Positions 32,106-47,626 of a stretch of DNA of 64,000 nt are shown piece after piece. Numbering within the stretch: the stretch's first letter is position 1; the number at the start of each line of letters is the position of its first letter. Source of the DNA: Verrucomicrobiota bacterium JB022 (GTDB lineage: Bacteria; Verrucomicrobiota; Verrucomicrobiia; Opitutales; Oceanipulchritudinaceae); NCBI GenBank assembly GCA_030673845.1, contig JAUTCQ010000017.1, positions 248,001 through 312,000 of the forward strand. Reading direction: 5' to 3'. The notes under the pieces were generated by a model. That model searched no databases. It was not told the origin of the DNA and saw only the letters and a list, made by a program, of their open reading frames with translations. Position numbers and translations under genes: made by a program.

Positions 32106-32148
32106 AAAGGCGCTGCGGCCACTGTGAGTGGCTCAACTTTTTAATCAG

Positions 32149-34617
32149 ATGTCCCTGCTTCCTTCTTATAGAACCGTGTCCTGTCTCTTGGGATGCAGCC
32201 TTTTTCTTCACGCACTGCCCGGGCAGACCGCTCAAACCACGGCCGAAGCCGGCCTGGGGGTGAGCGAACGTACCACTCCGGACGAGGCTGCGTTGAGTGA
32301 CCCGGCGGCGGATGTGCAAAATTTGCCAGTCGAGAGCGACGCCTCCGGCAGCGCCAACGAAAGCCCCCGCGAACGCGGTCGCGTGCTCCAGAAGCGCAAC
32401 CCGATTGCCTCTGAGTACCAAGCCTTTGGCGATGTGGGCCTCGGCAGCGCCGCCGATGGCGACGGCGAAGGCGTCGACTACCGCGCCTTCTTTCCTGGGT
32501 CCACCATCCTGGGCCGCAAAGACAGCCTGCGCACCGGCCTCGAACTCAACTACAACCACATGTCGGGCTCCAGCGCCTGGGGCGGCGGCGTGCAAGGCCT
32601 CGTCGGCTGGGGCGAAGACAAATGGGCCTTCGCCTTTCAAGCCCGCTCCTCGGCGGCCGACCGCGCGGTAGAGCACTATGAAGCCTATTGGGCCACGCTG
32701 CGCGGCGGCTACGATGGAGACGATGCGACGACGGACGATGAAGCCTACTTCCTCGACCGCCCGCGCTACTCGCGCGACACGATTTATACGCGCGACAACC
32801 GCTACACGGGCCAACTGGAGTGGGCGCCGAGCGAAAATCAGCTCTTTTACCTGCGCGCCTTCTATCAGGACTACTACGACCGCTTTTACCGCAACCGCCT
32901 GGAGCTGCAATTCGGGGCGGGCGACTTCGATGTGCTTGCCAGCGAAGGCGACACCGTCACGCAAGGCCAGGTGGAAGACGGCCGCACGCGCCGCTATTTT
33001 GGCGACACGATCACCAACCGCGAGCGCTACCGCCTGACAGCGGGCGGCGAGACCCGTTTTGACTGGGGCGCGATCAGCTACTCCGCCTTTTACCACAAGT
33101 GGGATATGTCTGACATGTGGTGGGACTGGAATTTCAAGGACTCCGGCCTCGACATGCGCTACGACATCAGCGATCCGGCCTTCCCGACCTACGAGATCCT
33201 CAGCGGCCAGGACCTGATGGACACCAGCACGGCAGAATTCCAGAGCCTGCGCCTCCACCCGACCGAAACCACGGATGAAGATTACGCAGGGCGGGCCGAT
33301 GTTGAGTACCGGCTGGAAACTTTTGACCAGCCGATCTGGATCTACTCGGGCGTGCTCCACCGCGAAAAAAAGCGCACCAACCGCGAAGATCGCGAAGTCT
33401 ATAACCCCGCCAATGGCGGCTTCACCCTTGATCGGGTCGATCAGGCTTACGCGCCGGGCACCATCGTCCGCGACCGCTTTGAGCAGCCCGCCGGTCTGGC
33501 CGCGACCCCCGGCGCCCATTTCTTCTACGATAACAAGGACGCTTACTTCGGCTTCGAGGAAAACGCCTCCAAGCTCGAATCTTACCAGCAGACGTATGAC
33601 GCCGAGGAGGCCGTCTCGGGCGGCTACCTCCTGCTGGCCAGCGCCCTGGGCAAGTGGAACGTGTCCGCCGGCCTTCGCGCCGAACACACCAAGACCGACA
33701 CGCTCGGGATCGAGCAGGTGCCGGTAAGCGTCAACGACCCCAGCGTGGGCCGCGAAATCGACCAGGTGGGCGATGTGGTGGTCAAGGAGCGGACGGCGAA
33801 CCGCTCGTATTGGAATTACCTCCCGTCCTTCCAGCTCGAATACAAGCTCGCCGAAGACTGGACGCTGCGCGGCGCCTGGTCGCAAGTGCTCATGCGGCCC
33901 CAGTATTTCGACATCGTTCAATACCGCCGCGTGGCCATCCCCACGCAGACCATCAGTGAGGGTAACCCCAATCTGGAACCGACCCGGATCAATCAATACC
34001 AGTTCGGCATCGTCCACGGCACCGAGAGCTGGGGCACCCTTTCGGTCGAGCTCTACTACCTGGAGATCAGCAACTTCTTCTACGGCGCGGCCGATACCGA
34101 ATACATCGGTGGTGCTCCCTACACCGTCAGCCGCGTCGAAAACGGCGAAGAAGGCCACATTCAAGGCTTTACGGCTCAGTGGGACAAGCGCTTCAAGCTC
34201 ACGGAAACCTGGGCGCTGGCCACCTCGCTCGGCTATACCTATTCCGACCACGAGGCAAAAATCGACACTCCGACCCGTCCGGACGAGACGATTGCCGTGC
34301 CGGGCCGCTCGGATCACCTCGCGCAGGCGCGGGTGGATTTGAACGACGACCGCTACCGCTTCTCCCTCGGCTTCTCCTATCAGAGCGAGTCGTTGGACGA
34401 TGTGGACCAGAGCGCAGGTCGCGATACTTACCGCGAGAAGGTCATTTCCTTTGACGCGGCGGCCAGTCGCGCGATCGGCGAACACTGGCGCGTAGGGGTG
34501 CAAGTCTTCAACCTGCTGGATTCGCCCGAGCGCAGCTACATGGGCGACGAGCTGCGCCAGACGAAGAACCAATACAGCCTCTGGTACGGCGTGGTGAGTG
34601 CTGACTATACGTTCTGA
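32149..34617 (+). CDS. TonB-dependent-receptor-type beta barrel lacking a plug domain
   Basis: 822 residues from ATG 32149 with signal peptide (TVSCLLGCSLFLHALPGQTAQ). Only ~80 low-complexity residues (SERTTPDEAALSDPAADVQ and similar) precede the barrel, so the ~150-residue plug with its VxVDGVPMG-type motif is absent. The barrel matches the Xanthomonas/Caulobacter receptor group: WAPSENQLFYLRAFYQDYYDRFYRNR, EYKLAEDWTLRGAWSQVLMRPQYFDI, SEGNPNLEPTRINQYQFG, ending VVSADYTF. It could be an open or helper channel, or receive a plug in trans. Followed 14 bp later by an MFS carrier, suggesting joint uptake. Confidence 0.85.
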   Translation: MSLLPSYRTVSCLLGCSLFLHALPGQTAQTTAEAGLGVSERTTPDEAALSDPAADVQNLPVESDASGSANESPRERGRVLQKRNPIASEYQAFGDVGLGSAADGDGEGVDYRAFFPGSTILGRKDSLRTGLELNYNHMSGSSAWGGGVQGLVGWGEDKWAFAFQARSSAADRAVEHYEAYWATLRGGYDGDDATTDDEAYFLDRPRYSRDTIYTRDNRYTGQLEWAPSENQLFYLRAFYQDYYDRFYRNRLELQFGAGDFDVLASEGDTVTQGQVEDGRTRRYFGDTITNRERYRLTAGGETRFDWGAISYSAFYHKWDMSDMWWDWNFKDSGLDMRYDISDPAFPTYEILSGQDLMDTSTAEFQSLRLHPTETTDEDYAGRADVEYRLETFDQPIWIYSGVLHREKKRTNREDREVYNPANGGFTLDRVDQAYAPGTIVRDRFEQPAGLAATPGAHFFYDNKDAYFGFEENASKLESYQQTYDAEEAVSGGYLLLASALGKWNVSAGLRAEHTKTDTLGIEQVPVSVNDPSVGREIDQVGDVVVKERTANRSYWNYLPSFQLEYKLAEDWTLRGAWSQVLMRPQYFDIVQYRRVAIPTQTISEGNPNLEPTRINQYQFGIVHGTESWGTLSVELYYLEISNFFYGAADTEYIGGAPYTVSRVENGEEGHIQGFTAQWDKRFKLTETWALATSLGYTYSDHEAKIDTPTRPDETIAVPGRSDHLAQARVDLNDDRYRFSLGFSYQSESLDDVDQSAGRDTYREKVISFDAAASRAIGEHWRVGVQVFNLLDSPERSYMGDELRQTKNQYSLWYGVVSADYTF

Positions 34618-34631: not shown

Positions 34632-35822
34632 ATGCCGCGCGCTTCCCTCTGGCACCTCTCGCTCCATCAGGGCCTGCTCTCCCTGCAGGCTCAGGCGGCG
34701 TGGCTGCTGGTGCCGCTGTGGGGCGCGCAAATCGGCTGGGGCCTGCAGGAGACGGGGCTCGTCCTCGCTGCGCAGGCGACCGGCACTGCCGTCGGCTCTG
34801 TGCTCGCCGGCCTGTGTGCGGCTCGTTGGGGCGCGGCCCGGATGGTCCGGTGGTCGTCCTGGCTCGTGGCCGCTTTTTCGCTCGCTTTGCTCGTGCCGCA
34901 GGCGGGCCTTTTTTATTGGGCCGCGTTGAGGGCGCTGGCAGGAGTTGCCACCGGGCTCAGTCGCGGTCTGGTGCCGATGGTGGCGGTGCGCGGCGAAGAT
35001 TCGCCCCGCCGCTCGCTGTCGCTCTCCACTGCTGGCTATGTCGCGGGGCAGGCGGCGGGCTTGCCCTTGGCGCTGGTGGTAGGCGCGGCCATTTCTCCGG
35101 CCTTTGTGCTGGGTGGGCTGGGCGGCCTCTTGCTGGTGTCGACTGCGGTGCTCCGGCTGGCGAAGGATGCGCCCCCGGCGGCGGTGCAGAAAATCCGGGC
35201 GCTCTGGCAGGCGTTGGGGCAGGAGGTGCGGACGCCTGCTACGCTGGGCACCGCGAGCCTCTATGCTGTTTCTTTCGCCATCGGCGGGGCGCTGCTGGCG
35301 TATTTACCAGTCTGGTGGACCGAAGAAAAGGTGCGCAGCTCCGGTCAACTGGCGGTGTGGCTGTGCATCGCCGGGGTGGTACAGGCGGGGGTGTTGATTT
35401 TGCTCAGCCAACTACAGGTGCAGCGCTCGGTGGTGCGCCGGATCGGCGGCTGGATGTGCGCCTCCGGCCTTGTCTGCCTGACGGGGCCGCTCTGGTGGCA
35501 GCTTTCGCCCATGAGTGCCGGGGTGTGGGTGTTGCTGATGCTGGTGACGCGCGCTGGCCGGATCCCGGCGATCCAGGAGAGCCTTTTTGCGCGTGGCAGC
35601 GATGCGAGCCAAGCGGTGCGCTTGAGCCTGTGTTACGGCGTCGCGGAGCTGGGCCGTGCGATGGGAGCCTCGGCTGCGGGGTGGATTTACCCGCAGGGAG
35701 GATTTGCCGGGGTGGCGCTGGCCAGCGGGCTCTTGGCGGCGCTGGCTCTATTGGCATTGCCATGGCTTTCCCACTCTCAAGAAGTGGGCTGGCAAAATAA
35801 AGGCACGCCCGCCTCGGAGTAG
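34632..35822 (+). CDS. MFS transporter
   Basis: 396 residues with about twelve membrane segments. Loop 2-3 has the MFS pattern (GLCAARWGAARMVRWSSWLVA), and the halves are joined by LRLAKDAPPAAVQKIRALWQALG. Substrate unknown. It begins 14 bp behind the plug-less barrel gene, so an outer-membrane and an inner-membrane step for the same solute are likely coexpressed from the sigma54-like promoter at 32088. No terminator is evident in the 170 bp after it. Confidence 0.88.
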   Translation: MPRASLWHLSLHQGLLSLQAQAAWLLVPLWGAQIGWGLQETGLVLAAQATGTAVGSVLAGLCAARWGAARMVRWSSWLVAAFSLALLVPQAGLFYWAALRALAGVATGLSRGLVPMVAVRGEDSPRRSLSLSTAGYVAGQAAGLPLALVVGAAISPAFVLGGLGGLLLVSTAVLRLAKDAPPAAVQKIRALWQALGQEVRTPATLGTASLYAVSFAIGGALLAYLPVWWTEEKVRSSGQLAVWLCIAGVVQAGVLILLSQLQVQRSVVRRIGGWMCASGLVCLTGPLWWQLSPMSAGVWVLLMLVTRAGRIPAIQESLFARGSDASQAVRLSLCYGVAELGRAMGASAAGWIYPQGGFAGVALASGLLAALALLALPWLSHSQEVGWQNKGTPASE

Positions 35823-35992: not shown

Positions 35993-37153
35993 TCAGCCGA
36001 AAATCTTCCGCATCGCCCGCTCGCACTGATCCATCTCTCGGCGATTGCCCATGCTGGTGCGGCACCAGTCTTCATAAGGCGGGAAGGGGCGGCCAATGAG
36101 CAGGCCTTCTTCCTTCATCGCGGCCTCGTAGTCGCGGATCGGCATCTTGATCTCGTGGAAGACGAAATTGCCATGCGAGGGCGTGTAGCGCAGGCCCAAC
36201 TCGTCGAGTAGCTGCGTATACCGCGTACGCTCTTCGCGGATCAGGCGGCGCGAAAGCTGGTGAAAACTGTCGTCGCGCAAGCTCACGCGGGCCGCTGCCA
36301 CGCCCAGCCAGTTGGGGCTCGACATCTTGAAGTGCTCCAGCCGCTTGGCGATCTCGGGTGTGGTGATGGCGTAGCCGAGGCGGTGGCCGGCCAGCCCGTG
36401 CATCTTCGAAAAAGAGCGACCGATGATCACCGGCAGGCCCTCCTTGACCAGCGGCACCATCGTCTGCTGGCGAAACTCATCGTCGAGGTCCAGATACACC
36501 TCGTCGAGGAACACCGTCGTGCCGGGGGTGACGCGGCGGATAAAACCCTCGATCTCGGCGGGCCCGTGGCGTGTGCCGCTGGGTGTATCGGGGTTGCAGA
36601 CGTAGACGAGGCTCGTCGCGCTATCCACCTTGGCCTCCATCGCGGCGAGGTCGTGCTTCATGTCGCTCTCGCGATGGGGGATCCATTCGACGTGGGCGCC
36701 CATCTTCTCCGCGCACTCCATCAGCCACAGGTAAGTGGGCTCGGTCGCGATCAGCGTGGCGCCGGGGTGGCCGTAGGCAAAGCCCGTCAGGCCCAGAATC
36801 TCGTCGCAGCCGTTGCCCAGCACGATGTTCTCGCGCTGCACGCCCTCGAGCGCCGCAATGTCGTCGCGCAGGATCGACTCTTCGCGCCAGGGGTAGCGGC
36901 AGCTCTCCGGGGTGGCGTTGAAGATGGCCTGGACGACGCGGCGGGAGGGCCCGTGCGGGTTTTCATTGCCCGCCAGGTTGATGTATTTGAGATCCGGGTA
37001 GCGGGCGATCAGGCCGGCATCGGGCGCGGCCGCAGGCGTATTGGGGTTGGTGGCGGTGGCTTGGCCGCCCAGGCGGCTGCCAAGGGCGCCGGCGAGCAGA
37101 GTGCCGCCCGAGAGTTGAAGCCAGCGACGACGGGAAAGGGTGGGGAAGTCCAT
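35993..37153 (-). CDS. Tat-exported HisC-like PLP aminotransferase (paralog 1)
   Basis: 386 residues. The N-terminus SRRRWLQLSGGTLLAGALG is a twin-arginine signal, implying export of the folded, cofactor-loaded enzyme. Catalytic features of class I/II aminotransferases remain: N187 in VCNPDTPSG, D217 in FLDEVYLDL, Schiff-base K250 in GRSFSKMHGLAG, and the carboxylate-binding Arg in WCRTSMGN. It resembles histidinol-phosphate aminotransferase but an exported member cannot serve histidine synthesis. The last of four tandem paralogs; preceded by a terminator at 37177-37212, so it may have its own promoter. Confidence 0.9.
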   Translation of the reverse strand: MDFPTLSRRRWLQLSGGTLLAGALGSRLGGQATATNPNTPAAAPDAGLIARYPDLKYINLAGNENPHGPSRRVVQAIFNATPESCRYPWREESILRDDIAALEGVQRENIVLGNGCDEILGLTGFAYGHPGATLIATEPTYLWLMECAEKMGAHVEWIPHRESDMKHDLAAMEAKVDSATSLVYVCNPDTPSGTRHGPAEIEGFIRRVTPGTTVFLDEVYLDLDDEFRQQTMVPLVKEGLPVIIGRSFSKMHGLAGHRLGYAITTPEIAKRLEHFKMSSPNWLGVAAARVSLRDDSFHQLSRRLIREERTRYTQLLDELGLRYTPSHGNFVFHEIKMPIRDYEAAMKEEGLLIGRPFPPYEDWCRTSMGNRREMDQCERAMRKIFG

Positions 37154-37176
37154 GCGTGAGAATCGGGAATGGGTTT

Positions 37177-37212
37177 TAAAAATAGAAACGGCCGCCAGGA
37201 AAGGCGACCGTT
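37177..37212 (-). terminator. Terminator of aminotransferase paralog 2
   Basis: Minus-strand stem AACGGTCGCC / GGCGGCCGTT (37212-37203, 37196-37187; one G-U) followed by TCTATTTTT. Confidence 0.8.
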
Positions 37213-37259
37213 AACTGAGGCGCGGCACTGCCGCGAGGAGGGCGGGCAGCGGCGCGAGA

Positions 37260-38402
37260 TCAGGTAGAAATCTTGCCTTTCTGCTTCATCACCTTCTCGA
37301 AGACCTCGTAGAAGACGGCCATCTCTTCCTCCGAGCCGATGCTGATGCGGGCCCAGTCCATCAGGGGAGGGAAGGGGCGACCGATCAGGACCTGCTCGGC
37401 GGCCATATCGGCCTGCAGTTCTTCGATCGGCACGCCGGTGTGCACAAAGATGAAGCTGCCGTTGGGTTCAGCATATTTCAGGCCCCAGGCGTCCAGTTTG
37501 GCCTTAAATTCGTCGCGCACCTTGTGATACTGCTCGACGTTGTAAGCGAAGTGGTCCTGGTCCTCGATTGCGGCCACGGCGGCCACGGCGCTGAGGATCG
37601 ACGGATACTGCATGTGGTAGGGCTCAAGCTTCTCGAGGACCTGCGGCTGGGCGATCCCGTAGCCGATGCGCAGGCCAGCGAGGCCCCATGCCTTGGAGAA
37701 GGTGCGGGAGACGATCAGGTTTTCGCGCTGTTTGACCAGCTTGGCCATCGAGTGCTTTTCCAGCCCGCCCGGAGCCAGCTCCAGGTAAGCCTCGTCGATA
37801 AAGATCAGCACGTCCTTGGGGGCGGAGAGGATGAACTGGCTCAACTCGATCGGGTTGGGCACCGTGCCGGTCGGGTTGTTCGGGTTGCAGATGTAGACGA
37901 TGGCAGTGTTTTCGTCCATCGCCGCCTTGATCGCCTTCAAGTCGACTTCGAGCTTGCTGTTGAGCGGCACCGACTTGAACTCGCCGCCCTGCTGCACAAA
38001 CGAGTCCGTCAGCTGCGTATAGCCAGGCGTGGAGGAGACGACGTTCTTGCCGGGTTCGGCGTAGGCCATGGCCGTCATCAAGAGTACCGGGCCGCTGCCG
38101 TCGGTCTGGATGATGTGGTTGGCGGGCAAGCCTTCGCGGGCGGCCAGCGCCTGTTGCAAGGCCATCGCTTCTTCGCGCGGGTAGCGATTGGCGCCTTGGA
38201 GCTTCTGCATAATGGCCATCTGCGACATCTGCGAATAGCCAAAGGCGTTCTCGTTGATCGAGATGTTGACGGGGCCGCGCTCGGCCTCGTCATTGATTTC
38301 GTGCTGCGCAAACAGCGGTGCGGCGACCAGAGAGAAGGCCGCGAGCAGGCTGCTTTGCTGCAGCCGGCGGAGGAGGTGGAGACTCTTCAAGTGCGGGGAC
38401 AT
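37260..38402 (-). CDS. Exported HisC-like PLP aminotransferase (paralog 2)
   Basis: 380 residues with a signal peptide ending ...AAFSLVAAPLFAQ and mature start HEINDEAERGPVNISINENAFGYS. PLP residues intact: ICNPNNPTGT, FIDEAYLEL, K227 in SRTFSKAWGLAG, Arg in DWARISIG. The signal has an RR (LLRRLQQSS), so Sec versus Tat is open. Very similar to paralogs 3 and 4 but the most diverged of the three (YPREEAMALQQ, HFAYNVEQYHKV). The short 77-bp upstream gap contains only the terminator of paralog 3, so it either depends on readthrough or has a weak promoter there. Confidence 0.9.
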   Translation of the reverse strand: MSPHLKSLHLLRRLQQSSLLAAFSLVAAPLFAQHEINDEAERGPVNISINENAFGYSQMSQMAIMQKLQGANRYPREEAMALQQALAAREGLPANHIIQTDGSGPVLLMTAMAYAEPGKNVVSSTPGYTQLTDSFVQQGGEFKSVPLNSKLEVDLKAIKAAMDENTAIVYICNPNNPTGTVPNPIELSQFILSAPKDVLIFIDEAYLELAPGGLEKHSMAKLVKQRENLIVSRTFSKAWGLAGLRIGYGIAQPQVLEKLEPYHMQYPSILSAVAAVAAIEDQDHFAYNVEQYHKVRDEFKAKLDAWGLKYAEPNGSFIFVHTGVPIEELQADMAAEQVLIGRPFPPLMDWARISIGSEEEMAVFYEVFEKVMKQKGKIST

Positions 38403-38431
38403 CTTGTGTTGAGTGGTTGGATGGAGAGACG

Positions 38432-38465
38432 AAAAAAAAAGCGGAGCGAGGAAAACCCGCTCCGC
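38432..38465 (-). terminator. Terminator of aminotransferase paralog 3
   Basis: Minus-strand perfect stem GCGGAGCG / CGCTCCGC (38465-38458, 38448-38441) followed by nine T residues (38440-38432). Confidence 0.9.
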
Positions 38466-38479
38466 CTGGATGGAAAGTT

Positions 38480-39622
38480 TTAGGCAGCTAGTTTGCCTTT
38501 TTCCTTCATCACGCGCTCGAAGACTTCGAGGAAGACTTGCATTTCCTCTTCGGTCCCGATGCTGATCCGGGCCCAGTCGAGCATGGGCGGGAAGGGGCGA
38601 CCGATGAGCACGTCTTCAGCTTCCATCGCGGCTTGCAGCTCTTCAATCGGCACGCCGGTCTGGACGAAGATGAAGCTGCCATTCGGGTCGGCATACTTGA
38701 GGCCCATTTCGTCGAAGCGCTTCTTCACCATGTCGCGCACGGAGGTGTAGCTCTCGACGCTGTAGCTAAAGAAGTCCGTGTCTTGCAGGGCGGCGGTGGC
38801 GGCCACGGTGCTGAGGATGGAGGGCCCGCCCATGTGGTAGGGGCGCAGCTTGTCGAGGGTGGCGGGTTGTGCCACACCGTAGCCGACGCGCAGGCCGGCC
38901 ATGCCGTAGACCTTGGAGAAGGTGCGGGCCACGATCATGTTTTCACGCTGCTTGACGAGCTTGACCATCGAGTTCTTTTCCAGGCCGCCGGGGGCCAGCT
39001 CGAGGTAGGCTTCGTCGACAAACACGAGCACATCCTTGGGCGCGGAGAGGACGAATTGGGTCAGCTCCAGCGGGTTGATGATGGTACCGGTCGGGTTGTT
39101 TGGGTTGCAGATGTAGACGATGGCGGTGTTTTCGTCCATCGCGGCCTTCACGGCGGCGAGATCGTACTGCAGCTTGTCGTTGAGCGGCACTTCCTTGACG
39201 GTGCCGCCGTGGGCCTCGAAGGCGCGCGACAGCTGGGTGTAGCCAGGGGTGACCGTCACGATATTCTTGCCGGGCTTGGCGTAGGCCAGGGCCGTCATGA
39301 CGAGCACGGGGCCGCTGCCGGCGGTCTGGATCACATGGTTGCTGGGCACGCCTTCACGGGCGGCGATGGCATTCTGGAGTTCCACCGCTTCAGCAGCCGC
39401 ATAGCGGTTGGCGCCCTGGAGCTTCTGCATGATGGCCATTTGAGCCATCTGCGAGTAGCCGAAAGCGTTTTCATTGCCGTTGATCTTGACGGGCGCGCGC
39501 TCGGCGTCGTCGCTGATTTCGTGTTGGGCAAAGACCGGGGCCGCGATCAGCGCCAGAGAGGCCAGCAGGCCGCTCATCCGGAGCCAGCGGGGGAGACGGA
39601 AGTTGAGTGTATCGGTGGACAT
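38480..39622 (-). CDS. Exported HisC-like PLP aminotransferase (paralog 3)
   Basis: 380 residues from the ATG at 39622; the frame is open further upstream but the signal peptide (MSGLLASLALIAAPVFAQ) fixes the start. Mature start HEISDDAERAPVKINGNENAFGYS. PLP residues conserved (VYICNPNNPTGT, FVDEAYLEL, ARTFSKVYGMAGLR, DWARISIGTEEEM). Same length as paralogs 2 and 4 and closest to 4, indicating recent duplication. It has its own sigma54-like promoter (39669) and strong terminator, thus a single-gene unit. Confidence 0.92.
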   Translation of the reverse strand: MSTDTLNFRLPRWLRMSGLLASLALIAAPVFAQHEISDDAERAPVKINGNENAFGYSQMAQMAIMQKLQGANRYAAAEAVELQNAIAAREGVPSNHVIQTAGSGPVLVMTALAYAKPGKNIVTVTPGYTQLSRAFEAHGGTVKEVPLNDKLQYDLAAVKAAMDENTAIVYICNPNNPTGTIINPLELTQFVLSAPKDVLVFVDEAYLELAPGGLEKNSMVKLVKQRENMIVARTFSKVYGMAGLRVGYGVAQPATLDKLRPYHMGGPSILSTVAATAALQDTDFFSYSVESYTSVRDMVKKRFDEMGLKYADPNGSFIFVQTGVPIEELQAAMEAEDVLIGRPFPPMLDWARISIGTEEEMQVFLEVFERVMKEKGKLAA

Positions 39623-39668
39623 CTTTTTCGGTTTTGTTAAAAGGGATCGGTTGATCGACAGTCCTTTG

Positions 39669-39686
39669 AGCACAGGTCGTGCCGGT
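39669..39686 (-). promoter_or_regulatory. Sigma54-type promoter of aminotransferase paralog 3
   Basis: CGGCACGACCTGTGCT on the minus strand: GG (39683-39682), ten bases, GC (39671-39670). GGCACG and TGCT match the -24/-12 consensus. TGTTGAGT motifs lie at 39698 and 39709, just upstream. Confidence 0.6.
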
Positions 39687-39828
39687 TGAATCCCTAATGT
39701 TGAGTATTTGTTGAGGGAATGGCTTGCGTTGAGTGCTCTACCCGGTGCCACACCGGTATTATAGGGCTGAATCGCCTTGATTAGAGGGCTGAGGGCGGAT
39801 GCTCGCTTTCGCTCAACGGTGGGTGGAC

Positions 39829-39868
39829 AAAAAAAACCCCCGCCCGCCGCAGAGCGGCAAGGCAGGGG
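39829..39868 (-). terminator. Terminator of aminotransferase paralog 4
   Basis: GC-rich hairpin (39868-39837, inner stem GCCGC/GCGGC) followed on the minus strand by eight T residues (39836-39829). Confidence 0.85.
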
Positions 39869-39905
39869 TGGTCGCGTGATCAAAAAGCTTGTTGAGTAAA
39901 ATTGA

Positions 39906-41048
39906 TCAGGCGGCGAGCTTGCCCAGATCCTTCATCGCGCGCTCGAAGGCTTCGAGGAAGATTTCCATCTCCTCCGGGGTGCCCAGGGTGACGCGGGCCC
40001 AGTCGAGCAGGGGCGGGAAGGGGCGACCGATGATCACGTTCTGCTCTTCCAGCTTGGCGTTGAGCTCCTGGATCGGCACGCCGGTGTGGATAAAAATGAA
40101 GCTGCCGTTCGGGTCGGCGTATTCGATGCCCATCTCATCGAGGCGCTTTTTCACCATCTCGCGCACCTGCGTATAGCTCTCGACGCTGTAGTTGTAGAAG
40201 TCGGTATCCTGGACTGCGGCCGTGGCAGCCACTGCGCTGAGGATCGAGGGCCCACCCTGGAAGTAGGGTCGCAGCTTTTCCAGCGTCTGGGGCTGGGCCA
40301 CGCCATAGCCGATGCGCAGGCCCGCCATGCCGTAGACCTTGGAGAAGGTGCGGGCCACGATCAGGTTGGGGCGCTGCGAGACGAGTTTGACCATTGAGTT
40401 CTTTTCGAGGCCCCCCGGTGCGAGGTCGAGGTAGGCTTCGTCGATAAAGATCAGCACGTCCTTGGGCGCGGAGAGGATGAACTGGGTCAGCTCCAGCGGG
40501 TTGACGATGGTGCCGGTCGGGTTGTTCGGGTTGCAGATGTAGACGACCTTGGTGTCGGCGTCGATGGCCTGCTTGATCGCGGCGAGGTCGTACTGCAGCT
40601 TGTCGTTGAGCGGCACATACTTGGCCTCCCCGCCGGCCGAGACGAAGGCGTCCGTCAAGTCGGTGTAGCCCGGCTGGGTGGTGATCACGTTCTTGCCCGG
40701 CTCCCCGTAAGCGAGGCCGGTCATGGTCAGCACGGCTCCGCTGCCGGCGGTGACGAGCAGGTGGTCGGTCTTTACCTTTTCGTCGGCGGCCAAGGTCTGC
40801 TGCAGCTCCTGGGATTCGGCCGCGGCGTAGCGGTTGGCGCCCTGCAGCTTCTGCATGATCGCCATCTGGGCCATCTGGGAGTAGCCGAAGGCGTTTTCGT
40901 TGTAGTTGATCATCACCGGCGCCTGTTCGGCGTCGTCGCTGATCTCGTGCTGTGCGCGTAGCGGGCTGGCGCCGAGGGCCAGGAGCGCCAGCAGCGAGCC
41001 GGTGCGGAAGAGCGGAAGACGATTTACGGAATGGAAGTGGGTGAGCAT
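39906..41048 (-). CDS. Exported HisC-like PLP aminotransferase (paralog 4)
   Basis: 380 residues from ATG 41048; signal peptide RTGSLLALLALGASPLRAQ, mature start HEISDDAEQAPVMINYNENAFGYS. Catalytic set intact (VYICNPNNPTGT, FIDEAYLDL, ARTFSKVYGMAGLR, DWARVTLGTPEEM). It is the promoter-proximal member of the tandem array and is divergent from the amine-oxidase operon, with which it shares a 221-bp region carrying a sigma54-like promoter in each direction. Expected reaction: transfer of amino groups between amino acids and 2-oxoacids outside the cytoplasm; substrates unknown. Confidence 0.92.
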   Translation of the reverse strand: MLTHFHSVNRLPLFRTGSLLALLALGASPLRAQHEISDDAEQAPVMINYNENAFGYSQMAQMAIMQKLQGANRYAAAESQELQQTLAADEKVKTDHLLVTAGSGAVLTMTGLAYGEPGKNVITTQPGYTDLTDAFVSAGGEAKYVPLNDKLQYDLAAIKQAIDADTKVVYICNPNNPTGTIVNPLELTQFILSAPKDVLIFIDEAYLDLAPGGLEKNSMVKLVSQRPNLIVARTFSKVYGMAGLRIGYGVAQPQTLEKLRPYFQGGPSILSAVAATAAVQDTDFYNYSVESYTQVREMVKKRLDEMGIEYADPNGSFIFIHTGVPIQELNAKLEEQNVIIGRPFPPLLDWARVTLGTPEEMEIFLEAFERAMKDLGKLAA

Positions 41049-41093
41049 CTCGCTGGATTGGTTAAAAATGCACATTAAATGCGCCTATCCCTA

Positions 41094-41111
41094 GAGCATT
41101 GGGTGTGCCGA
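41094..41111 (-). promoter_or_regulatory. Sigma54-type promoter of aminotransferase paralog 4
   Basis: TCGGCACACCCAATGCTC on the minus strand: GG (41109-41108), ten bases, GC (41097-41096). Predicted 5' UTR about 36 bases. A TGTTGAGT motif lies upstream at 41132-41139. Confidence 0.6.
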
Positions 41112-41179
41112 CGCATTATTTTGTTTAGTGATGTTGAGTGAAAGTGCGCGTAATTGTTCAAGTTTACTCTACGGCGGGG

Positions 41180-41197
41180 TTGGCATCCTTCCCGCTG
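41180..41197 (+). promoter_or_regulatory. Sigma54-type promoter of the amine oxidase operon
   Basis: TTGGCATCCTTCCCGCTG: GG (41182-41183), ten bases, GC (41194-41195). The -24 half is perfect and the -12 half is CCGCT instead of TTGCT. It overlaps an inverted repeat CTCTACGGCGGG / CCCGCTGTAGAG (41167-41178, 41191-41202), which is an alternative reading of the same bases. Confidence 0.45.
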
Positions 41198-41269
41198 TAG
41201 AGCCAGCCGTCCCGAACGCGGTCCATTTTGGGCCGCATCCATTTTCAACCTCGTTTTCAGTCATTGAAT

Positions 41270-42838
41270 ATGTCTCTTCCTACCCCCCTGACGCGGCGTG
41301 AGTTCGTAATGCGCCTTGGTGGCGGTGCCCTCGCCGGTCTCACGGCGCTGGGCCTCATGTCGCGAGCCAGCGGCCAGGGAGTTGCGCTCGACGGGCTCAC
41401 CCCGGTCGATTCCCGCAAAGCCAAGAAAGTCGTCATCCTCGGGGCCGGTATTGCCGGCCTCACTGCCGCCTACGAGCTCCAGAAGCTGGGGATCGAGAGC
41501 GTGATCATCGAGCCGCGCGCCAAGGTTGGCGGCCGCTGCATCACCATCCGCAAAGGCGATGTGATCGAGGAGACCAACGGTTACAAACAGACCTGCCAGT
41601 TCGACGAAGGCCAGTACTTCAACCCCGGCCCGGCCCGCTTCCCGCAGTGGCACGTGACGATGGACTACTGCCGCGAGCTGGGGGTGCCGATCCAGCCTTT
41701 CCTCGCCGTCAACGAAAACGCCTGGTTCTACAACGAAGGCGAAGGCCTCGGCCCGTTGAGTGGTCAACGCATCCGCCAGCGCGAGGCCAAGGCCGACCTG
41801 CGGGGCTATGCCGCCGAGCTGCTCGCCAAGTGCGTCGACCAGGACAAGCTCGACCAGCCGCTCTCCGCCGAAGACAAGGAGCGTCTGCTCGACTTCCTCA
41901 CCTACGAGGGCCAGTTGGGCCGCGGCAACCGCTTTAGCGGCGGCACGCGACGCGGTTTCGACGTCTGGCCCGGCGCCGGTCTCCAGGAGGGCGAGATGGG
42001 CGAGCCCAACAAGATGGACGCGCTCCTGCAGTCCGAAGTCTGGAAGTTTTTCCACCGCGCCAATGAATACGAGTACCAGGCGCAAATGTTTACACCCGTG
42101 GGCGGGATGGACAATATTGCGCACGCCTTGGCCAAACAGGTGAGCAATAAGATCATTCTGGGCGCCAAGGTGAAAGAATTCCGCCACACCAACCCTGGTA
42201 TCCGCGTCGTCTACGAAGAAAACGGCGTCGACAAGGAAATCACGGGCGACTTCGGCATCGTCACCATCCCGCCGACGATCCTCCGCAAGCTGCCGAATGA
42301 TTTTTCGCCCATGTTGAAGAACACGCTCAACGTGGTGCCCTTCCAGAACAGCAACCGCATCGGCCTCCAGTTCAAGCGCCGCTTCTGGGAAGAAGACGAC
42401 CGCATCTTTGGCGGCATTACCTGGACCAACCAGCCGATCGGCGAAATCTATTACCCGAGCGAAGGCTTCTACGAAAAGAAGGGCGTGCTCGTGGGCTACT
42501 ACATCTTCGGCCCCGTCTCCGACGAGCTTGGCCGCAAGACCCCGGAAGAGCGCCTCGAGTTCGCGCTCTCCCAAGGTGAGAAGATCCACCCGCAGTACCG
42601 CAAGGAGTTCGACAACGCCGTCAGCTTCAACTGGTCGACCACGCCTCACATCGAAGGCTGCCTCGCCCACTTCCCGAAGGCGATGATGAAGACCTTCTAC
42701 CCGCTGCTGATCAAGCCGGAGCAGGAGACCTACATCGCCGCCAGCTGGGCCACCCACCTCGGCGGCTGGCAGGCAGGCGCGTTTGAAGCCGCCCGCCTCA
42801 CCGTCAAGAGCATCTACGACCGCATCCAAGCGGCCTGA
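41270..42838 (+). CDS. Tat-exported FAD-dependent L-amino acid/amine oxidase
   Basis: 522 residues. Tat signal TRREFVMRLGGGALAGLTALG, then the Rossmann FAD motif VVILGAGIAGLTAAYEL (G58, G60, G63), the amine-oxidase GG motif KVGGRCITI, and the C-terminal FAD block TYIAASWATHLGGWQAGAFEAARL. Such enzymes oxidise an amino group to an imine; the reduced flavin passes electrons to oxygen or another acceptor. Being followed by a cytochrome c, an ammonium transporter and RidA domains, it most likely is the key oxidase of an extracytoplasmic deamination pathway. Substrate unknown; polyamines or protoporphyrinogen are less likely from context. Confidence 0.92.
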   Translation: MSLPTPLTRREFVMRLGGGALAGLTALGLMSRASGQGVALDGLTPVDSRKAKKVVILGAGIAGLTAAYELQKLGIESVIIEPRAKVGGRCITIRKGDVIEETNGYKQTCQFDEGQYFNPGPARFPQWHVTMDYCRELGVPIQPFLAVNENAWFYNEGEGLGPLSGQRIRQREAKADLRGYAAELLAKCVDQDKLDQPLSAEDKERLLDFLTYEGQLGRGNRFSGGTRRGFDVWPGAGLQEGEMGEPNKMDALLQSEVWKFFHRANEYEYQAQMFTPVGGMDNIAHALAKQVSNKIILGAKVKEFRHTNPGIRVVYEENGVDKEITGDFGIVTIPPTILRKLPNDFSPMLKNTLNVVPFQNSNRIGLQFKRRFWEEDDRIFGGITWTNQPIGEIYYPSEGFYEKKGVLVGYYIFGPVSDELGRKTPEERLEFALSQGEKIHPQYRKEFDNAVSFNWSTTPHIEGCLAHFPKAMMKTFYPLLIKPEQETYIAASWATHLGGWQAGAFEAARLTVKSIYDRIQAA

Positions 42839-42858
42839 TTTCCACCCGTTTTCCGAAG

Positions 42859-43401
42859 ATGTCCCACCCGATTTCCACCCGACGTGAACCTTGGCAGTGC
42901 TGGAAGGTATGGGTCGCCGTAGTCGGCGTCGCCCTCTGCCTCCAGATCATGCTCTGGATCGCCGTGCCGCCCGAGACGTCGCCGCTCGGTCGTCACGACC
43001 CGAAGACCGGCACCTACCTCACCTGGGCCCGACAGGGCCACGGGGGCGGTCGGCTCGACTTGAAGGCGCTGGCCGCTTCGTCTGGCGGGGATTCGCAGGG
43101 TGGGGGCGGCTCGATGTATTACCAACTCGCCGCCCTGCCCGAAGTCGTCGAAAACGGCGAGGCGCAGTACAACATGTTCTGCCTCTCCTGCCACGGCGGC
43201 CCGGCCACCACGGGTGACGCGCCCAGCAACCTCTTCGACCCGGTGTGGCACTATGGCGACGGCCCCGACGGGGTCGCCCACATCATCCGCAAGGGCTATC
43301 CCGACGGCGGCATGCCGGCCTGGGAAGCCATGATCGAGCCCGACGTGATCGACGCGATCGTGGCATACCTCTTCAGCCACCAGGAGAAGCCCGCTTCCTG
43401 A
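42859..43401 (+). CDS. Membrane-anchored c-type cytochrome
   Basis: 180 residues: N-terminal membrane anchor (VWVAVVGVALCLQIMLWIAV, about 17-36), a glycine-rich linker, and a single-heme cytochrome c domain with CLSCH (C108, C111, H112) and the probable axial M142 in GGMPAWE. It starts 20 bp after the oxidase gene. The likely role is to accept electrons, directly or through quinol, from the exported flavin oxidase and pass them to a terminal oxidase; this is inferred from position only. Confidence 0.9.
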   Translation: MSHPISTRREPWQCWKVWVAVVGVALCLQIMLWIAVPPETSPLGRHDPKTGTYLTWARQGHGGGRLDLKALAASSGGDSQGGGGSMYYQLAALPEVVENGEAQYNMFCLSCHGGPATTGDAPSNLFDPVWHYGDGPDGVAHIIRKGYPDGGMPAWEAMIEPDVIDAIVAYLFSHQEKPAS

Positions 43402-43439
43402 GAAGCGCGGCACGACCTCCCTCTCACCCGATTTACAAG

Positions 43440-44789
43440 ATGTCCCTCGCCTCTTCACTCAACACCCGTGCCGCCCGTGTCGGGGTGGGGCTGAGCCTCC
43501 TGCTCGCCTCGCCCTCGCTCATTGCCGCGCGCTATATCGACCAGAAGACCTACGACGAGTTTCTGGAAGTCACGCTGCACAACGATTCGTTCTTCACGAT
43601 CAGCAACGCGTGGATTCTCATCTGCACCGCCCTGGTCTTTATCATGCACTTGGGCTTTGCCTCGCTCGAGGCCGGCCTCACGCGCAGGAAGAACACGATC
43701 AACATTCTCTACAAGAACGTGTTCGTAATCACCTCGGGCCTCATCCTCTACGCCCTCATCGGCTACCGCACGATGTACCCGGGCACGGATTTCAACGGCT
43801 TCATGCGGCTCGGCTTCGGCCTCGGCGCCAATCCGGACGACTACTTCGACCTGATGACGCCGCTCTACGCCGAATACACCTACTGGACCGATTTCCTCTT
43901 CCAGGGCATGTTTGCCGCCACCGCCGCCACCATCATCTCCGGTGCCGTGGCCGAGCGGATCAAGCTGGGTGCGTTCATGATCCTCACCATCTTCATGGTC
44001 GGCCTCGCCTATCCCATCGCGGGCTCGTGGACCTGGCAGGACGGCGGCTGGCTCAACCGTCAGGAGTTTCACGACTTTGCAGGCTCCAGCGTCGTCCACG
44101 CCTTCGGCGGCTTTGCCGCACTCGCCTGCGTGCTCCAGCTCGGGCCGCGCCTCGGCAAGTATAGCAAGGATGGCATCAAGCCGATCATCGGCCACAGCAT
44201 GCCGATGGCAACGATGGGTGCATTCCTGCTCTGGTTTGGCTGGTTCGGGTTCAACGGCGGCTCCGTGCTCAGCGCCCACCCCGAGATGATCAGCCTCGTT
44301 CTGGTCAACACCTGCCTCGGCGGCGCGGCGGGCGGCCTCACCTGCATGATCGCGACGCAAGTGATCGTAAAGAAGCCCGACCTTTCGATGATCCTCAACG
44401 GCATGCTCGCGGGCCTCGTGAGCGTCACCGCCGGTGCCGACTACATGATGCCCTACGGCGCGATGGCCGTCGGCGCGGTGGGTGGTGTGCTCGTGGTCGT
44501 GGCGGTCGTCCTGCTCGACAAGTTCAAGGTCGACGACCCGGTGGGCGCGGTGGCCGTGCACGGGGTGTGCGGTAGCTGGGGTACGATTGCGGTCGGCTTC
44601 TTCGGAGGGGCCAACCTGCTCACGCAGCTGCTCGGCACCCTCAGCTACTCGATCTTCGCCTTCGCCTTTGCCTTTATCGTCTTCTTCCTCATCCGCATCA
44701 CCTGGGGCGTGCGCGTCGCGCCGGAGGAAGAAGAAGAGGGCCTCGACCTCGCCGAACACGGCCAGGAAGCCTACTCCCTGGAGGGTTAA
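43440..44789 (+). CDS. amt: Ammonium transporter (Amt family)
   Basis: 449 residues from ATG 43440 (MSLASSLNTRAARVGVGLSLLLASPSLIAARYIDQ, signal-like N-terminus); the frame extends upstream inside the cytochrome gene but not in a plausible way. Eleven membrane segments with Amt signatures: FIMHLGFASLEAGLTRRKNTINILYKNV, FAATAATIISGAVAERIKL, DFAGSSVVHAFGGFAALAC, and VAVHGVCGSWGTIAVG with the second pore histidine. No GlnK gene is adjacent, unusual for a nitrogen-assimilation amt; here it is embedded in a catabolic operon. Confidence 0.95.
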   Translation: MSLASSLNTRAARVGVGLSLLLASPSLIAARYIDQKTYDEFLEVTLHNDSFFTISNAWILICTALVFIMHLGFASLEAGLTRRKNTINILYKNVFVITSGLILYALIGYRTMYPGTDFNGFMRLGFGLGANPDDYFDLMTPLYAEYTYWTDFLFQGMFAATAATIISGAVAERIKLGAFMILTIFMVGLAYPIAGSWTWQDGGWLNRQEFHDFAGSSVVHAFGGFAALACVLQLGPRLGKYSKDGIKPIIGHSMPMATMGAFLLWFGWFGFNGGSVLSAHPEMISLVLVNTCLGGAAGGLTCMIATQVIVKKPDLSMILNGMLAGLVSVTAGADYMMPYGAMAVGAVGGVLVVVAVVLLDKFKVDDPVGAVAVHGVCGSWGTIAVGFFGGANLLTQLLGTLSYSIFAFAFAFIVFFLIRITWGVRVAPEEEEEGLDLAEHGQEAYSLEG

Positions 44790-44792
44790 ACC

Positions 44793-46322
44793 ATGCCAGA
44801 AACGACAACTTCCGAAACCACTGCCCCCGCGCAGTCCACCCCGCCGGAGTCGAAAAAGCCGGCGGGTGCCAAGAAGAGCAAATGGCAGCTCTTTCCCGGC
44901 TTCTCCCCGTGGCTCGTGCTCGGCGTCTTTGCTACCGCCGTCGTGATCCGGCTTGTGCTCGCGCTGCTCTCCCAAGGGCAGAACAGCAACGTCACCAGCC
45001 ACACCAACCCAGAGCTGCCTTACGCCGAGCTGGTGGAAGTCGCGCCCGGCTCCAGCTACTTCTTCACCTGGGGCGTCACGGCCAGCCCACGCACGAAGGA
45101 GATTGCCCGCACGAGCACCGACGACCGCTACGGCGATACCTACTCGCAGTCCCGCCAAGTCCTCTCGACCTTGCAGAGCGACCTCAGCGAAGTGGGCCTC
45201 AGCCTGCGCGACGTCGTCAACGTCCGCGCCTACATCGTGGGTGACGACGGCGAGGAGCCCGACTTCGCGGCCTGGAACAAGGCCTTCATGGAGTTCTTCG
45301 GCACCTGGCACAACCCGCACGTGCCCGCCCGCACCACGCTGGGCATCACGCGCCTCTTCAACCCCGATTACCGGGTCGAAGTCGAGTTCGTGGTAGCCTT
45401 CCCCGACGGTCGCGGCCCGTTCGACGAAGGTAGCTGGTTCGATAAGCGCCACCAGCGCCTCAGTCGCACCGAGACGAGTGAAAACTGGCTCTCTTATGGC
45501 CGCCCCTCGTGGGTCATGAGCACCGGCAAGGCCACCGCGCCCGGCACCGATCTGTTTTTCTCCGCCCAGGTGCGCCCGGCCCCCCTCATGCCCAACGCGC
45601 CGCCCGCGCTCCAGATGTTCGGCACCGTCGATCAGCAGACCGCTTCGATCTTCAAGGAGATGAGCCAGACGCTGCAGGAAGCCGGCCTTGGCTACGAAGA
45701 CGTGTTCTTCGTCCGCACCATCGTTTATCCCGACCCGCGGACCTCGATCGGTCATAGCTTCTCCAGCTTCAACAAGACCTACGGCGAGTTCTTCAACAAC
45801 GACAAGAACCCGAACCGCCCGACGCGGACCCTCATGTCGGCCCCCGGCCTCACCGGCAAGAAGCAGTACCTCTCCATCGAGTTCTACGCCGCTTACCCGG
45901 AGGCCAAGGAAGGTGACATCCGCGAAACCGTGGGTGAAGCCGGCGGTCTCGGCACGCAAGGCGCCGTCGGTGGACGCGGGACCCGCGTGAGCAAAGACGG
46001 TCGCATGCTCTGGCTCAGTGGCACCATTGCCTCGACTTCAGCCGAAGAGCCGCTCGAAGCCCAGCTCGCCAGCGCGCTGGAAGGGGTGGAGCGCCGCCTC
46101 GCCCTCGCGGGTGCCACCAAGGAAGACATTACCGCCGTGCGCGCCTACCTCGTCTACGACTCCAACGCGATCCAGATGCAGCAGGAGATCACGGCGTGGG
46201 AAAAGTTCTTCCAGGAGAACCTCGGCGAGGTGAACCCGGCCGTCACCACCCTCCCGGTGGTCTCCCTCCCCGGTGGCTACCGCGTGGAGCTGGAAGTCCA
46301 GGCCGTCATCGCCGACGAGTAG
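44793..46322 (+). CDS. Membrane-anchored protein with three RidA (YjgF/UK114) domains
   Basis: 509 residues: polar N-terminus, one membrane helix (PWLVLGVFATAVVIRLVLALL, 39-59), then three RidA-like domains at about 75-205, 225-370 and 385-507. RidA enzymes hydrolyse enamines and imines made by PLP- or flavin enzymes to oxoacids plus ammonium. The carboxylate-binding arginine is kept in domain 1 (R180, VPARTTLG) and domain 2 (R345, PTRTLMSA) but is replaced by V484 in domain 3 (PAVTTLPV), which may be structural. With the helix N-terminal and short positive segment inside, the domains face the periplasm. Starts 3 bp after amt. Confidence 0.88.
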   Translation: MPETTTSETTAPAQSTPPESKKPAGAKKSKWQLFPGFSPWLVLGVFATAVVIRLVLALLSQGQNSNVTSHTNPELPYAELVEVAPGSSYFFTWGVTASPRTKEIARTSTDDRYGDTYSQSRQVLSTLQSDLSEVGLSLRDVVNVRAYIVGDDGEEPDFAAWNKAFMEFFGTWHNPHVPARTTLGITRLFNPDYRVEVEFVVAFPDGRGPFDEGSWFDKRHQRLSRTETSENWLSYGRPSWVMSTGKATAPGTDLFFSAQVRPAPLMPNAPPALQMFGTVDQQTASIFKEMSQTLQEAGLGYEDVFFVRTIVYPDPRTSIGHSFSSFNKTYGEFFNNDKNPNRPTRTLMSAPGLTGKKQYLSIEFYAAYPEAKEGDIRETVGEAGGLGTQGAVGGRGTRVSKDGRMLWLSGTIASTSAEEPLEAQLASALEGVERRLALAGATKEDITAVRAYLVYDSNAIQMQQEITAWEKFFQENLGEVNPAVTTLPVVSLPGGYRVELEVQAVIADE

Positions 46323-46363: not shown

Positions 46364-46395
46364 AAACCCGGTCGGTCCACCCGACCGGGTTTTTT
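46364..46395 (+). terminator. Intrinsic terminator of the amine oxidase operon
   Basis: Twelve-bp perfect stem AAACCCGGTCGG / CCGACCGGGTTT (46364-46375, 46381-46392), 5-nt loop, T run to 46395. It separates the operon from the AT-rich insert. Confidence 0.92.
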
Positions 46396-46468: not shown

Positions 46469-47626
46469 ATGGAAAGCGAATGGTTTGAGGATTACTCTGA
46501 AGATGAAGACCTTCTTGTAAGGGAGTATGATATTACGTCGACTCCCAATGATTTTAATGTTGCGACTTTGTTTAGTTTTGTAGAGTCCGGTGCGGTCTCT
46601 ATTCCAGGCTTTCAGCGTAACTTTGTTTGGGACATTAAGCGGTCATCGAAGTTGATTGAATCTCTAATATTAGGGCTCCCAGTGCCCCAGTTGTTTCTCT
46701 ACGAGCAGGCTAGAAATAAGTTTCTCGTTATCGACGGACAACAGCGATTGATGTCAATCTATTATTTTAAGAAGCAGAGATATCCGAGAAAAGAAAAACG
46801 CGGGGAATTGCGGGCTATATTTGAAGAAAATGGAGGAATTCCAGACGACATCCTTCACGATGATGAATATTTTTCAAATTTTCGTCTTTCTCTTCCTGGA
46901 CGGCTTCCTGAGAAAAAGAACCCATATTCTGGTAAGTCATATTCAACGCTCGGAGAATTCAAGGTTCAGTTTGATTTAAGGCCTATACGTAATGTCGTTG
47001 TTAGACAAAACTCGCCCGAGGGCGATGATTCATCGGTCTTTGAGATATTTAGCAGGTTAAACTCTGGAGGTGTAAACTTAACGCCTCAAGAAATTCGGTT
47101 GAGTCTCTATCATTCAGCTTTTTATGATATCCTAATGAGGATGAATATGAGTGAGGGGTGGCGGAGGATCTTGTCCAATGATACACCTGATCTCCACTTG
47201 AAGGATGTTGAGGTGATGTTACGGCTTTTCGCGGTGCTTATTGATCATCAAAACTATTCGTCTTCAATGGTGAAGTTTCTAAATCAGTTTTCACGGAAGT
47301 GTCAGCAGAATGATGAAGAAATGAATGCTTACTTAATTGGGCTTTTTAACTCGTTCATTGCGGCATGTGGTAATCTTCCGGATCGCGCATTTTTGAGCCG
47401 TAAAACCGGTCGCTTCAGTATCGCGCTTGTTGAGGCTGTCTTTACAGCAGCTTCACAGCAAGCATTCGCAGAACGGAGATTGTTGAATGGGATGCTTGAA
47501 ATTGATGAAATCGAGGAGCTGGCCAAAGATGAGACCTTTGTCGAGGCTGCAACTAAGGCTTCCACTCATACTTCAAACTTAACCATTCGGCTGGAGCGCG
47601 GTCGGCATTTTATCACCTCGCTTTAG
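46469..47626 (+). CDS. DUF262 domain protein
   Basis: 385 residues. The DUF262 fold is marked by SIPGFQRNFVW (about 44-54), KLIESLILGLPVPQLFLYE and the catalytic-type FLVIDGQQRLMSI (DGQQR at 89-93), with FEIFSRLNSGGVNLTPQEIRLSLYH further on. DUF262 proteins are ParB/sulfiredoxin-related and occur in DNA modification-dependent restriction (GmrSD) and other defence contexts. There is no DUF1607 nuclease half here; instead a HEPN protein follows 3 bp later. Base composition is clearly AT-richer than all neighbours, suggesting lateral acquisition. Confidence 0.9.
   Translation: MESEWFEDYSEDEDLLVREYDITSTPNDFNVATLFSFVESGAVSIPGFQRNFVWDIKRSSKLIESLILGLPVPQLFLYEQARNKFLVIDGQQRLMSIYYFKKQRYPRKEKRGELRAIFEENGGIPDDILHDDEYFSNFRLSLPGRLPEKKNPYSGKSYSTLGEFKVQFDLRPIRNVVVRQNSPEGDDSSVFEIFSRLNSGGVNLTPQEIRLSLYHSAFYDILMRMNMSEGWRRILSNDTPDLHLKDVEVMLRLFAVLIDHQNYSSSMVKFLNQFSRKCQQNDEEMNAYLIGLFNSFIAACGNLPDRAFLSRKTGRFSIALVEAVFTAASQQAFAERRLLNGMLEIDEIEELAKDETFVEAATKASTHTSNLTIRLERGRHFITSL

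Follow-up and report, generated by a model that had tools for sequence, protein, structure and literature searches.

The 64,000-nucleotide stretch of Verrucomicrobiota bacterium JB022 analysed here (contig JAUTCQ010000017.1, forward-strand positions 248,001 to 312,000; the window) carries, at 35993-46322, an island of eight genes in two divergent arms that probably serves oxidative deamination in the periplasm. The plus-strand arm encodes a flavin amine oxidoreductase (the oxidase), a cytochrome c, an Amt ammonium transporter and a single-chain protein with three Rid domains (the triple Rid), with gaps of 20, 38 and 3 bp; the minus-strand arm encodes four class I/II aminotransferases (PF00155), AT1-AT4. 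The original prediction had described these arms as four exported aminotransferases divergent from an operon for oxidase, cytochrome c, Amt and triple Rid, and Pfam profiles found every one of the named genes in its place (Table 1, with the starts of the oxidase, AT3 and Amt genes as refined by reading). The four aminotransferases do begin with export-type N-termini, one of them Tat-type (twin-arginine translocation) and three Sec-type. We infer export of the oxidase and the aminotransferases from these N-terminal sequences and their conservation.

Table 1. Features of the island and its surroundings (window coordinates unless a locus or contig is named).
Feature	Position	Strand	Evidence or remark
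AT1, aminotransferase class I/II, Tat-type N-terminus (SRRRWLQLSGG)	35993..37153	-	PF00155 E 1.1e-36
AT2, aminotransferase, Sec-type N-terminus, tandem copy of AT3 type	37260..38402	-	PF00155 E 5.4e-51; tree
AT3, aminotransferase, Sec-type N-terminus, start moved from TTG at 39883	38480..39622	-	PF00155 E 1.7e-49 (scan from 39601); tree
AT4, aminotransferase, Sec-type N-terminus, tandem copy of AT3 type	39906..41075	-	PF00155 E 1e-48; 3ly1
Divergent intergenic region, probable promoters for both arms	41076..41269	.	one consensus promoter-like site, - strand, weak
Oxidase, LAAO-type flavoenzyme, Tat-type motif	41270..42838	+	PF01593 E 5.9e-44; 2jae E 7.3e-97
Mono-haem cytochrome c, N-terminal hydrophobic helix	42859..43401	+	PF13442 E 1.3e-12; CLSCH
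Amt ammonium transporter	43440..44789	+	PF00909 E 1.7e-114
Triple Rid, single chain, N-terminal hydrophobic helix	44793..46322	+	PF01042, three stretches
Terminator-like stem then T run, possible operon end	46372..46388	+	50 bp past triple Rid gene
TBDR1, TonB-dependent receptor, conserved neighbour	29018..31921	-	PF00593/PF07715
TBDR2, TonB-dependent receptor, conserved neighbour	32128..34617	+	PF00593
MFS (major facilitator superfamily) transporter, conserved neighbour	34632..35822	+	PF07690
Second triple Rid with DAO-family oxidoreductase gene	L170:5731-8350 (own genome C13:288.7-291.3 kb); L147, L148, L149, L150	divergent	

The oxidase begins with MSLPTPLTRREFVMRLGG, and its TRREF and the SRRRW of AT1 are the only Tat-type motifs among the proteins of the island. 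Its closest solved structure is 2jae, listed as an L-amino acid oxidase (LAAO) and presumably the enzyme of Rhodococcus opacus; reconstructed tetrapod ancestors of such oxidases come next (2e-33), and monoamine oxidases reach 5e-15 or weaker. In the column of the carboxylate-binding Arg, which we take to be R84, the window oxidase shares the Arg of 2jae. This Arg and the RR motif are invariant in all seven aligned oxidases. A wider census covered the 80 best-scoring of 543 relatives in named genomes, and all phylum counts below describe this best-scoring part; a motif pattern found the Arg in 72 of the 80 loci, and the eight that it missed (three verrucomicrobial, four from Bacillota and one from Calothrix) carry it on direct reading. 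Together, the 2jae match and the conservation of the Arg favour amino acids as substrates, without proving it.

The cytochrome c has a single CLSCH haem site. Amt contains the stretches DFAGSSVVH and VHG, presumably the sites of its twin histidines, and its solved Amt relatives score E 8.7e-76. The last protein of the operon combines three PF01042 stretches with an N-terminal hydrophobic helix. An Arg of catalytic type, whose role we assume from its alignment with that of Rid proteins, is found in repeat 1 of 12 of the 13 chains compared and in repeat 2 of all 13. An AlphaFold2 model built from six sequences (pLDDT 77.8, pTM 0.79) shows one helix followed by mixed helix-strand units, and Foldseek placed single Rid domains on top of its matches (TMt 0.76 and 0.87 for the best two). 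Toblerone-fold hydrolases are themselves built of three concatenated Rid-like domains. Such cyclic amide hydrolases (cyanuric acid hydrolase, barbiturase; the title of entry 4bvq speaks of structural concatenation) were among the top whole-chain matches together with chorismatase, with mismatched domain packing (TM-scores 0.17-0.28, root-mean-square deviation about 20 A). The model thus gives no firm arrangement of the three domains, such as the trimeric barrel of Rid proteins within one chain, and an assignment to the Toblerone fold was dropped, the whole-chain TM-score never being good.

The genome holds a second triple Rid (C13:288754-289875) with three PF01042 matches and a Sec-type start, whose Arg motifs read by eye are PTRT in repeat 1, PALS in repeat 2 and PIRT in repeat 3. 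In all five loci inspected (own genome, G016, G002, G305 and G376, these being related genomes of the phylum) it lies divergent from a Tat-type oxidoreductase with flavin adenine dinucleotide of the D-amino acid oxidase (DAO) family, an assignment that rests on a PF01266 scan for three of the five and on tblastn matches of 44-45% for the other two. An aminotransferase also follows the pair in G002; in G011 the second triple Rid was not found. The pair is possibly a sister periplasmic system for D-amino acids or other amines. Because the same kind of Rid chain is paired with two unrelated families of amino acid oxidases, hydrolysis of imine products is the predicted role of the triple Rid, and we regard this pairing as the best independent argument for it.

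AT1 begins with MDFPTLSRRRWLQLSGG, of Tat type, and AT2-AT4 with hydrophobic N-termini of Sec type. The best solved relative of AT4 is 3ly1 (E 1.3e-53), in an alignment that includes the TFSK stretch, and the FSK stretch, presumably the site of the pyridoxal phosphate (PLP) lysine, is kept in the window aminotransferases. Among NCBIfam models, the HisC model TIGR01141 reaches 236.1 bits with the best of the four, under its cut-off of 276.55; the model of the periplasmic transaminase PtaA, NF051461, reaches 231.8 bits (E down to 9.4e-69), far under its cut-off of 500. A reading of the four enzymes as cytoplasmic HisC was dropped in view of these scores and of the export-like N-termini. The Tat-type motif that PtaA-like export would use is present in AT1 and absent in AT2-AT4. 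AT2-AT4 (window 37260-41075) look Sec-exported, and related enzymes elsewhere are Tat-type; export by Sec, in which the enzyme leaves the cell unfolded, would mean that PLP is needed in the periplasm.

In a quick tree of 69 aminotransferase sequences, the deep branches of which (support 86 and 94) are not firm, AT2-AT4 cluster with two copies of the same-genus locus L063 (five rows, support 100), so that the four enzymes of the window go back to two older types, of which one has been amplified as tandem copies. This duplication is placed by the tree within the genus or just before it. Twelve AT1 orthologues fall together (support 100), as do 14 AT3-type enzymes with the G376 copy (support 100). 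The aminotransferases of 26 loci from Bacteroidota form a group of their own (support 99). In L036 and L037 the place of AT3 is taken by an enzyme of the exported-transaminase group seen in the loci L123-L130, which belong to order and class relatives. Since the lineages are separate and Tat-type members of the exported family occur in genomes without a detected oxidase of this type, the sequences suggest, without proving it, that the pairing of oxidase and transaminase arose more than once from that family.

The core of the island is conserved. We compared 14 distinct verrucomicrobial loci, namely the window, L063 (genome G016, same genus), L027-L032, L033 (G305), L034 (G002), L035 (G011), L036, L037 and L019 (G376), mostly assigned to Puniceicoccaceae, Pelagicoccus, Opitutales or Opitutaceae, with L032 and L033 placed only in Verrucomicrobia/Verrucomicrobiae. 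Oxidase, cytochrome c and amt follow one another in all 14, with oxidases 58-80% identical to that of the window. The adjacent same-strand cytochrome c gene had been missed by BLAST in L028, L030 and L032, where a CxxCH reading frame sits in the gap. The triple Rid gene comes after amt in 13 loci, the contig of L036 stopping inside amt. Simple Amt motif patterns failed in a few of the loci (the first in L030, the second in L033, L036 and L037). Aminotransferase genes lie within 4.5 kb of the operon in 13 of the 14, and among the 24 verrucomicrobial aminotransferases of 12 named loci 11 carry an RRx[FLW] motif. Across 387 genomes of the phylum, the same six, G376 among them, hold an oxidase at E<=1e-200, a triple Rid at E<=1e-100 and an AT4-type enzyme at E<=1e-110; these cut-offs were placed in score gaps after the lists had been seen and the genomes are related, hence no probability is attached. 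A more distant oxidase (41-43%) occurs in four additional genomes, three of which have a single RidA match directly next to it. As gene order is kept in 14 loci, the island is not a chance cluster, and that explanation was dropped.

Outside the island, both TonB-dependent receptors recur near it in ten of the 14 loci, on the aminotransferase side in the window, L063 and L027-L032 and on the opposite side in L034 and L035; an MFS homologue is near it in seven, the window included. In the five Pelagicoccus-type loci L028-L032, three more genes follow downstream, encoding an aldehyde dehydrogenase, a gamma-glutamyltranspeptidase and an M19 dipeptidase; none of them was found in the window or in the L063 stretch. 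The latter two have export-like starts in L028 (L028:16255-19280), and it is possible that they supply amino acids from periplasmic glutathione or peptides. As a class, terminator-like sites such as the one behind the operon are not above shuffled sequence (5 found against a mean of 5.0). Right behind the operon, a GmrSD_N gene and a 183 aa partner (46469-48181) lie in a stretch of low GC (46.5% against 57-67% in the remaining 2-kb bins) and are probably a recently gained restriction or defence pair.

In the wider census, the oxidases of 28 loci from Bacteroidota and 39 from Bacillota are all Tat-type. An aminotransferase stands alongside in 26 of the Bacteroidota loci, every one with an RRx[FLW] motif; of the two misses, L085 stops 0.3 kb past the oxidase, and L073 has room but none was found. 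The same 26 loci contain a third gene, with a Sec-type start and a self-processing Hint domain (PF01079; e.g. L068:12821-13810 and L048:11756-12748). In Bacillota, a RidA homologue accompanies the oxidase in 38 of 39 loci (the miss, L097, has room), and 36 of the 38 RidA frames have a hydrophobic N-terminal stretch. The Arg pattern of single RidA proteins matched 22 of the 38; among five frames looked at individually, one more shows TARST and another is truncated, and no claim is drawn from this count. A single Calothrix locus, whose contig stops 0.25 kb past the oxidase, has neither RidA nor aminotransferase. Five plasmids, chosen among 36 plasmid records with a match, were read: one from Comamonas has oxidase, cytochrome c and RidA (oxidase 37.9% identical), one from Mesorhizobium oxidase and cytochrome c, one from Metabacillus oxidase, Rid, tatA and tatC, and one from Sphingomonas oxidase, TonB receptor and RidA. 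On pDSHI02 of Dinoroseobacter shibae (L144), cytochrome oxidase genes lie directly upstream of oxidase and cytochrome c, which suggests a dedicated electron route.

Much of this composition is in print. The operon lao-cccA-ridA of Gluconacetobacter diazotrophicus PAL5, published in 2016 (PMC5053998), encodes a Tat-type LAAO, a cytochrome c and RidA and is needed for indoleacetate; Caulobacter crescentus and Xanthomonas reportedly share this conserved organisation, and the accessible part of the article proposes much the same functional division, Chlamydomonas analogy included. The window shares with it the Tat-signal flavoenzyme of LAAO type (judged by the 2jae match, the Arg and the RR motif), the adjoining cytochrome c and a Rid in the same operon, but here the Rid is triple and separated from the cytochrome c gene by amt. 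The Gluconacetobacter cluster has, as far as described in that part, a single RidA and neither Amt nor aminotransferase, the word ammonium being absent from the text, and was studied for indoleacetate production. According to the text available of a later survey, a large number of the Tat flavin amine oxidoreductases that have a cytochrome c next to them work as cytochrome c dehydrogenases (PMC12224317). NicA2 and Pnao with CycN resemble the window in the Tat enzyme and the adjacent exported cytochrome c as electron acceptor, and the window has the same arrangement, export of its cytochrome being predicted from a hydrophobic helix. In contrast to the LAAO-type enzyme of the window, NicA2 and Pnao act on amines, the survey began from NicA2 relatives, and RidA is unmentioned in the text available. 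In Chlamydomonas, periplasmic LAO1 with LAO2/RIDA deaminates amino acids and AMT imports only ammonium (PMC10805672, PMC7412212, both as excerpted), and extracellular deamination with uptake of ammonium only is likewise described for marine phytoplankton (PMC2855505, in the portion available). Extracellular deamination, a RidA partner and ammonium-only uptake are thus common to LAO1 and the proposed function of the window; LAO1 differs in being eukaryotic, in using O2 and making H2O2, and in lacking, in those excerpts, a cytochrome c or transaminase partner.

For the aminotransferases, the precedent is PtaA, a periplasmic transaminase that is exported by Tat with its PLP bound and for which periplasmic PLP regeneration is only assumed by its authors (PMC6206403, as far as accessible). 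PtaA and PvdN are exported PLP enzymes, as those of the window are predicted to be, and among NCBIfam models that of PtaA ranks with the closer ones; unlike the window enzymes, which score far under its cut-off, they act on pyoverdine and have, in the accessible text, no link to an amino acid oxidase. An amt gene inside an LAAO operon, a chain of three Rid domains and a pairing of the oxidase with exported transaminases are three features for which no account was found in the open PubMed Central literature, an absence that weighs little. What looks new is the joining of exported transaminases to the known core.

The original prediction had read the island as a periplasmic route by which amino acids lose their nitrogen outside the cytoplasm and only ammonium and oxoacids enter it (the oxoacid import being conjectural), had called this composition undescribed, and had named loss of the conserved gene order in relatives as a point that would speak against it. 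Order and export-type motifs turned out to be conserved, and the pairings of oxidase with RidA, cytochrome c or aminotransferase in other phyla also argue for the pathway. For the core, the claim of novelty has to be given up: the LAAO-cytochrome c-RidA operon, the coupling to cytochrome c and the logic of periplasmic deamination with Amt have all been published (PMC5053998, PMC12224317 and PMC7412212, in the parts available).

As we would picture the route, small amino compounds, most likely L-amino acids, cross the outer membrane, perhaps via the two TonB receptors, and would be oxidised in the periplasm by the Tat-exported LAAO-type flavoenzyme. Electrons would pass to the adjacent membrane-anchored cytochrome c and on to a terminal oxidase, not to O2 with formation of H2O2; the membrane-anchored triple Rid would hydrolyse the imine to oxoacid and ammonium, and Amt would take up the ammonium. 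The exported aminotransferases would probably widen the range of substrates by taking amino groups off amino acids that are poor substrates of the oxidase and placing them on the oxoacids that it makes, which would give it the substrate it prefers. We consider this periplasmic deamination as a whole, comprising electron transfer to cytochrome c, hydrolysis of the imine by Rid and ammonium uptake via Amt, to be likely on balance. What the sequences show directly is the identity and order of the genes, their motifs, their conservation and their co-occurrence. Localisation, electron route, imine hydrolysis and ammonium uptake are predicted from protein families and the literature, and the roles given to the aminotransferases, the TonB receptors and the MFS transporter are its least supported part. 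That the transaminases feed the oxidase, as a periplasmic transdeamination, is possible rather than probable. Equally tentative is a closed cycle in which the oxoacids of the oxidase serve as amino acceptors that regenerate transaminase PLP and the transaminases in turn supply the oxidase with amino groups. On this reading Verrucomicrobiota and Bacteroidota would each have brought a different aminotransferase lineage into the pairing, and one-chain triple Rids would act as general periplasmic imine hydrolases for LAAO-type and DAO-type enzymes.

Several observations weigh against periplasmic deamination as outlined. Export was read by eye from the sequence. Repeat 3 of the triple Rid has no Arg of catalytic type in any of the 13 chains, and in the L033 chain it is missing from repeat 1 as well. 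The G376 aminotransferases (an AT3-AT1 pair) are on another contig, not beside the operon, and Tat-type exported transaminases also occur in order and class relatives without a detected oxidase (L123-L130). Around the 39 Bacillota oxidases an aminotransferase was looked for and not found, as was RidA around the 28 from Bacteroidota; in general, then, the oxidase requires neither partner. If Sec-exported, AT2-AT4 would need to be loaded with PLP in the periplasm, the precedents PvdN and PtaA carrying it out folded (PMC6206403, accessible part). The genome holds three further amt genes, so that the island Amt is not the sole one, although TatC and five COX1-family matches make the route feasible. 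Finally, nine of the 14 loci have a gene for an aldehyde dehydrogenase next to the operon (on the other strand in L027), which fits amine oxidation, too.

The main rival builds on these dehydrogenases: the flavoenzyme would make aldehydes from primary amines in the periplasm, the neighbouring enzyme would oxidise them and Amt would recover the ammonium. The best, sub-threshold matches of the L028 dehydrogenase are indeed aminobutyraldehyde/semialdehyde dehydrogenases, and the published cytochrome c-coupled relatives act on amines (PMC12224317, text available). Yet among solved structures an L-amino acid oxidase leads clearly (E 7e-97, monoamine oxidases reaching 5e-15 at best), the relatives scanned (best 80 of 543) retain the LAAO Arg, no aldehyde dehydrogenase lies in the window or in the stretch from its genus sister, and transaminases do not fit amine catabolism; we therefore hold amine catabolism to be unlikely.

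Less probable still is the tailoring of an exported metabolite, such as a siderophore residue, with the TonB receptors retrieving the product. The pyoverdine tailoring by PtaA and PvdN (PMC6206403) would be its precedent, the aminotransferases match the PtaA model, far under its cut-off, and the best matches of TBDR1 are siderophore receptors, again under cut-off; Amt and Rid, however, are absent from pyoverdine tailoring as described in the accessible part of that article. No biosynthetic cluster was recognised by eye in the list of open reading frames of the window, profile annotation having covered the island only, and the oxidase-RidA pairs that recur in Bacillota (38 of 39 loci, within the best 80 of 543 relatives) do not fit tailoring either. 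Some exported LAAOs harm competitors via H2O2. An antagonistic oxidase mainly making H2O2 would agree with a passage on bactericidal H2O2 in PMC7412212, as excerpted, but the adjacent cytochrome c predicts poor use of O2 (PMC12224317, text available) and the presence of Amt in the operon suggests a gain of nitrogen, which makes antagonism, by a little, the least credible of these explanations.

If periplasmic deamination is the right reading, the island would be a conserved bacterial operon that gains amino acid nitrogen without amino acid import and keeps the electrons for respiration instead of losing them as peroxide. The use of Rid proteins would be widened to one-chain, triple-domain proteins of the periplasm. 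The pairing with transaminases makes the question raised by PtaA, that of PLP regeneration in the periplasm (PMC6206403, accessible part), directly testable.

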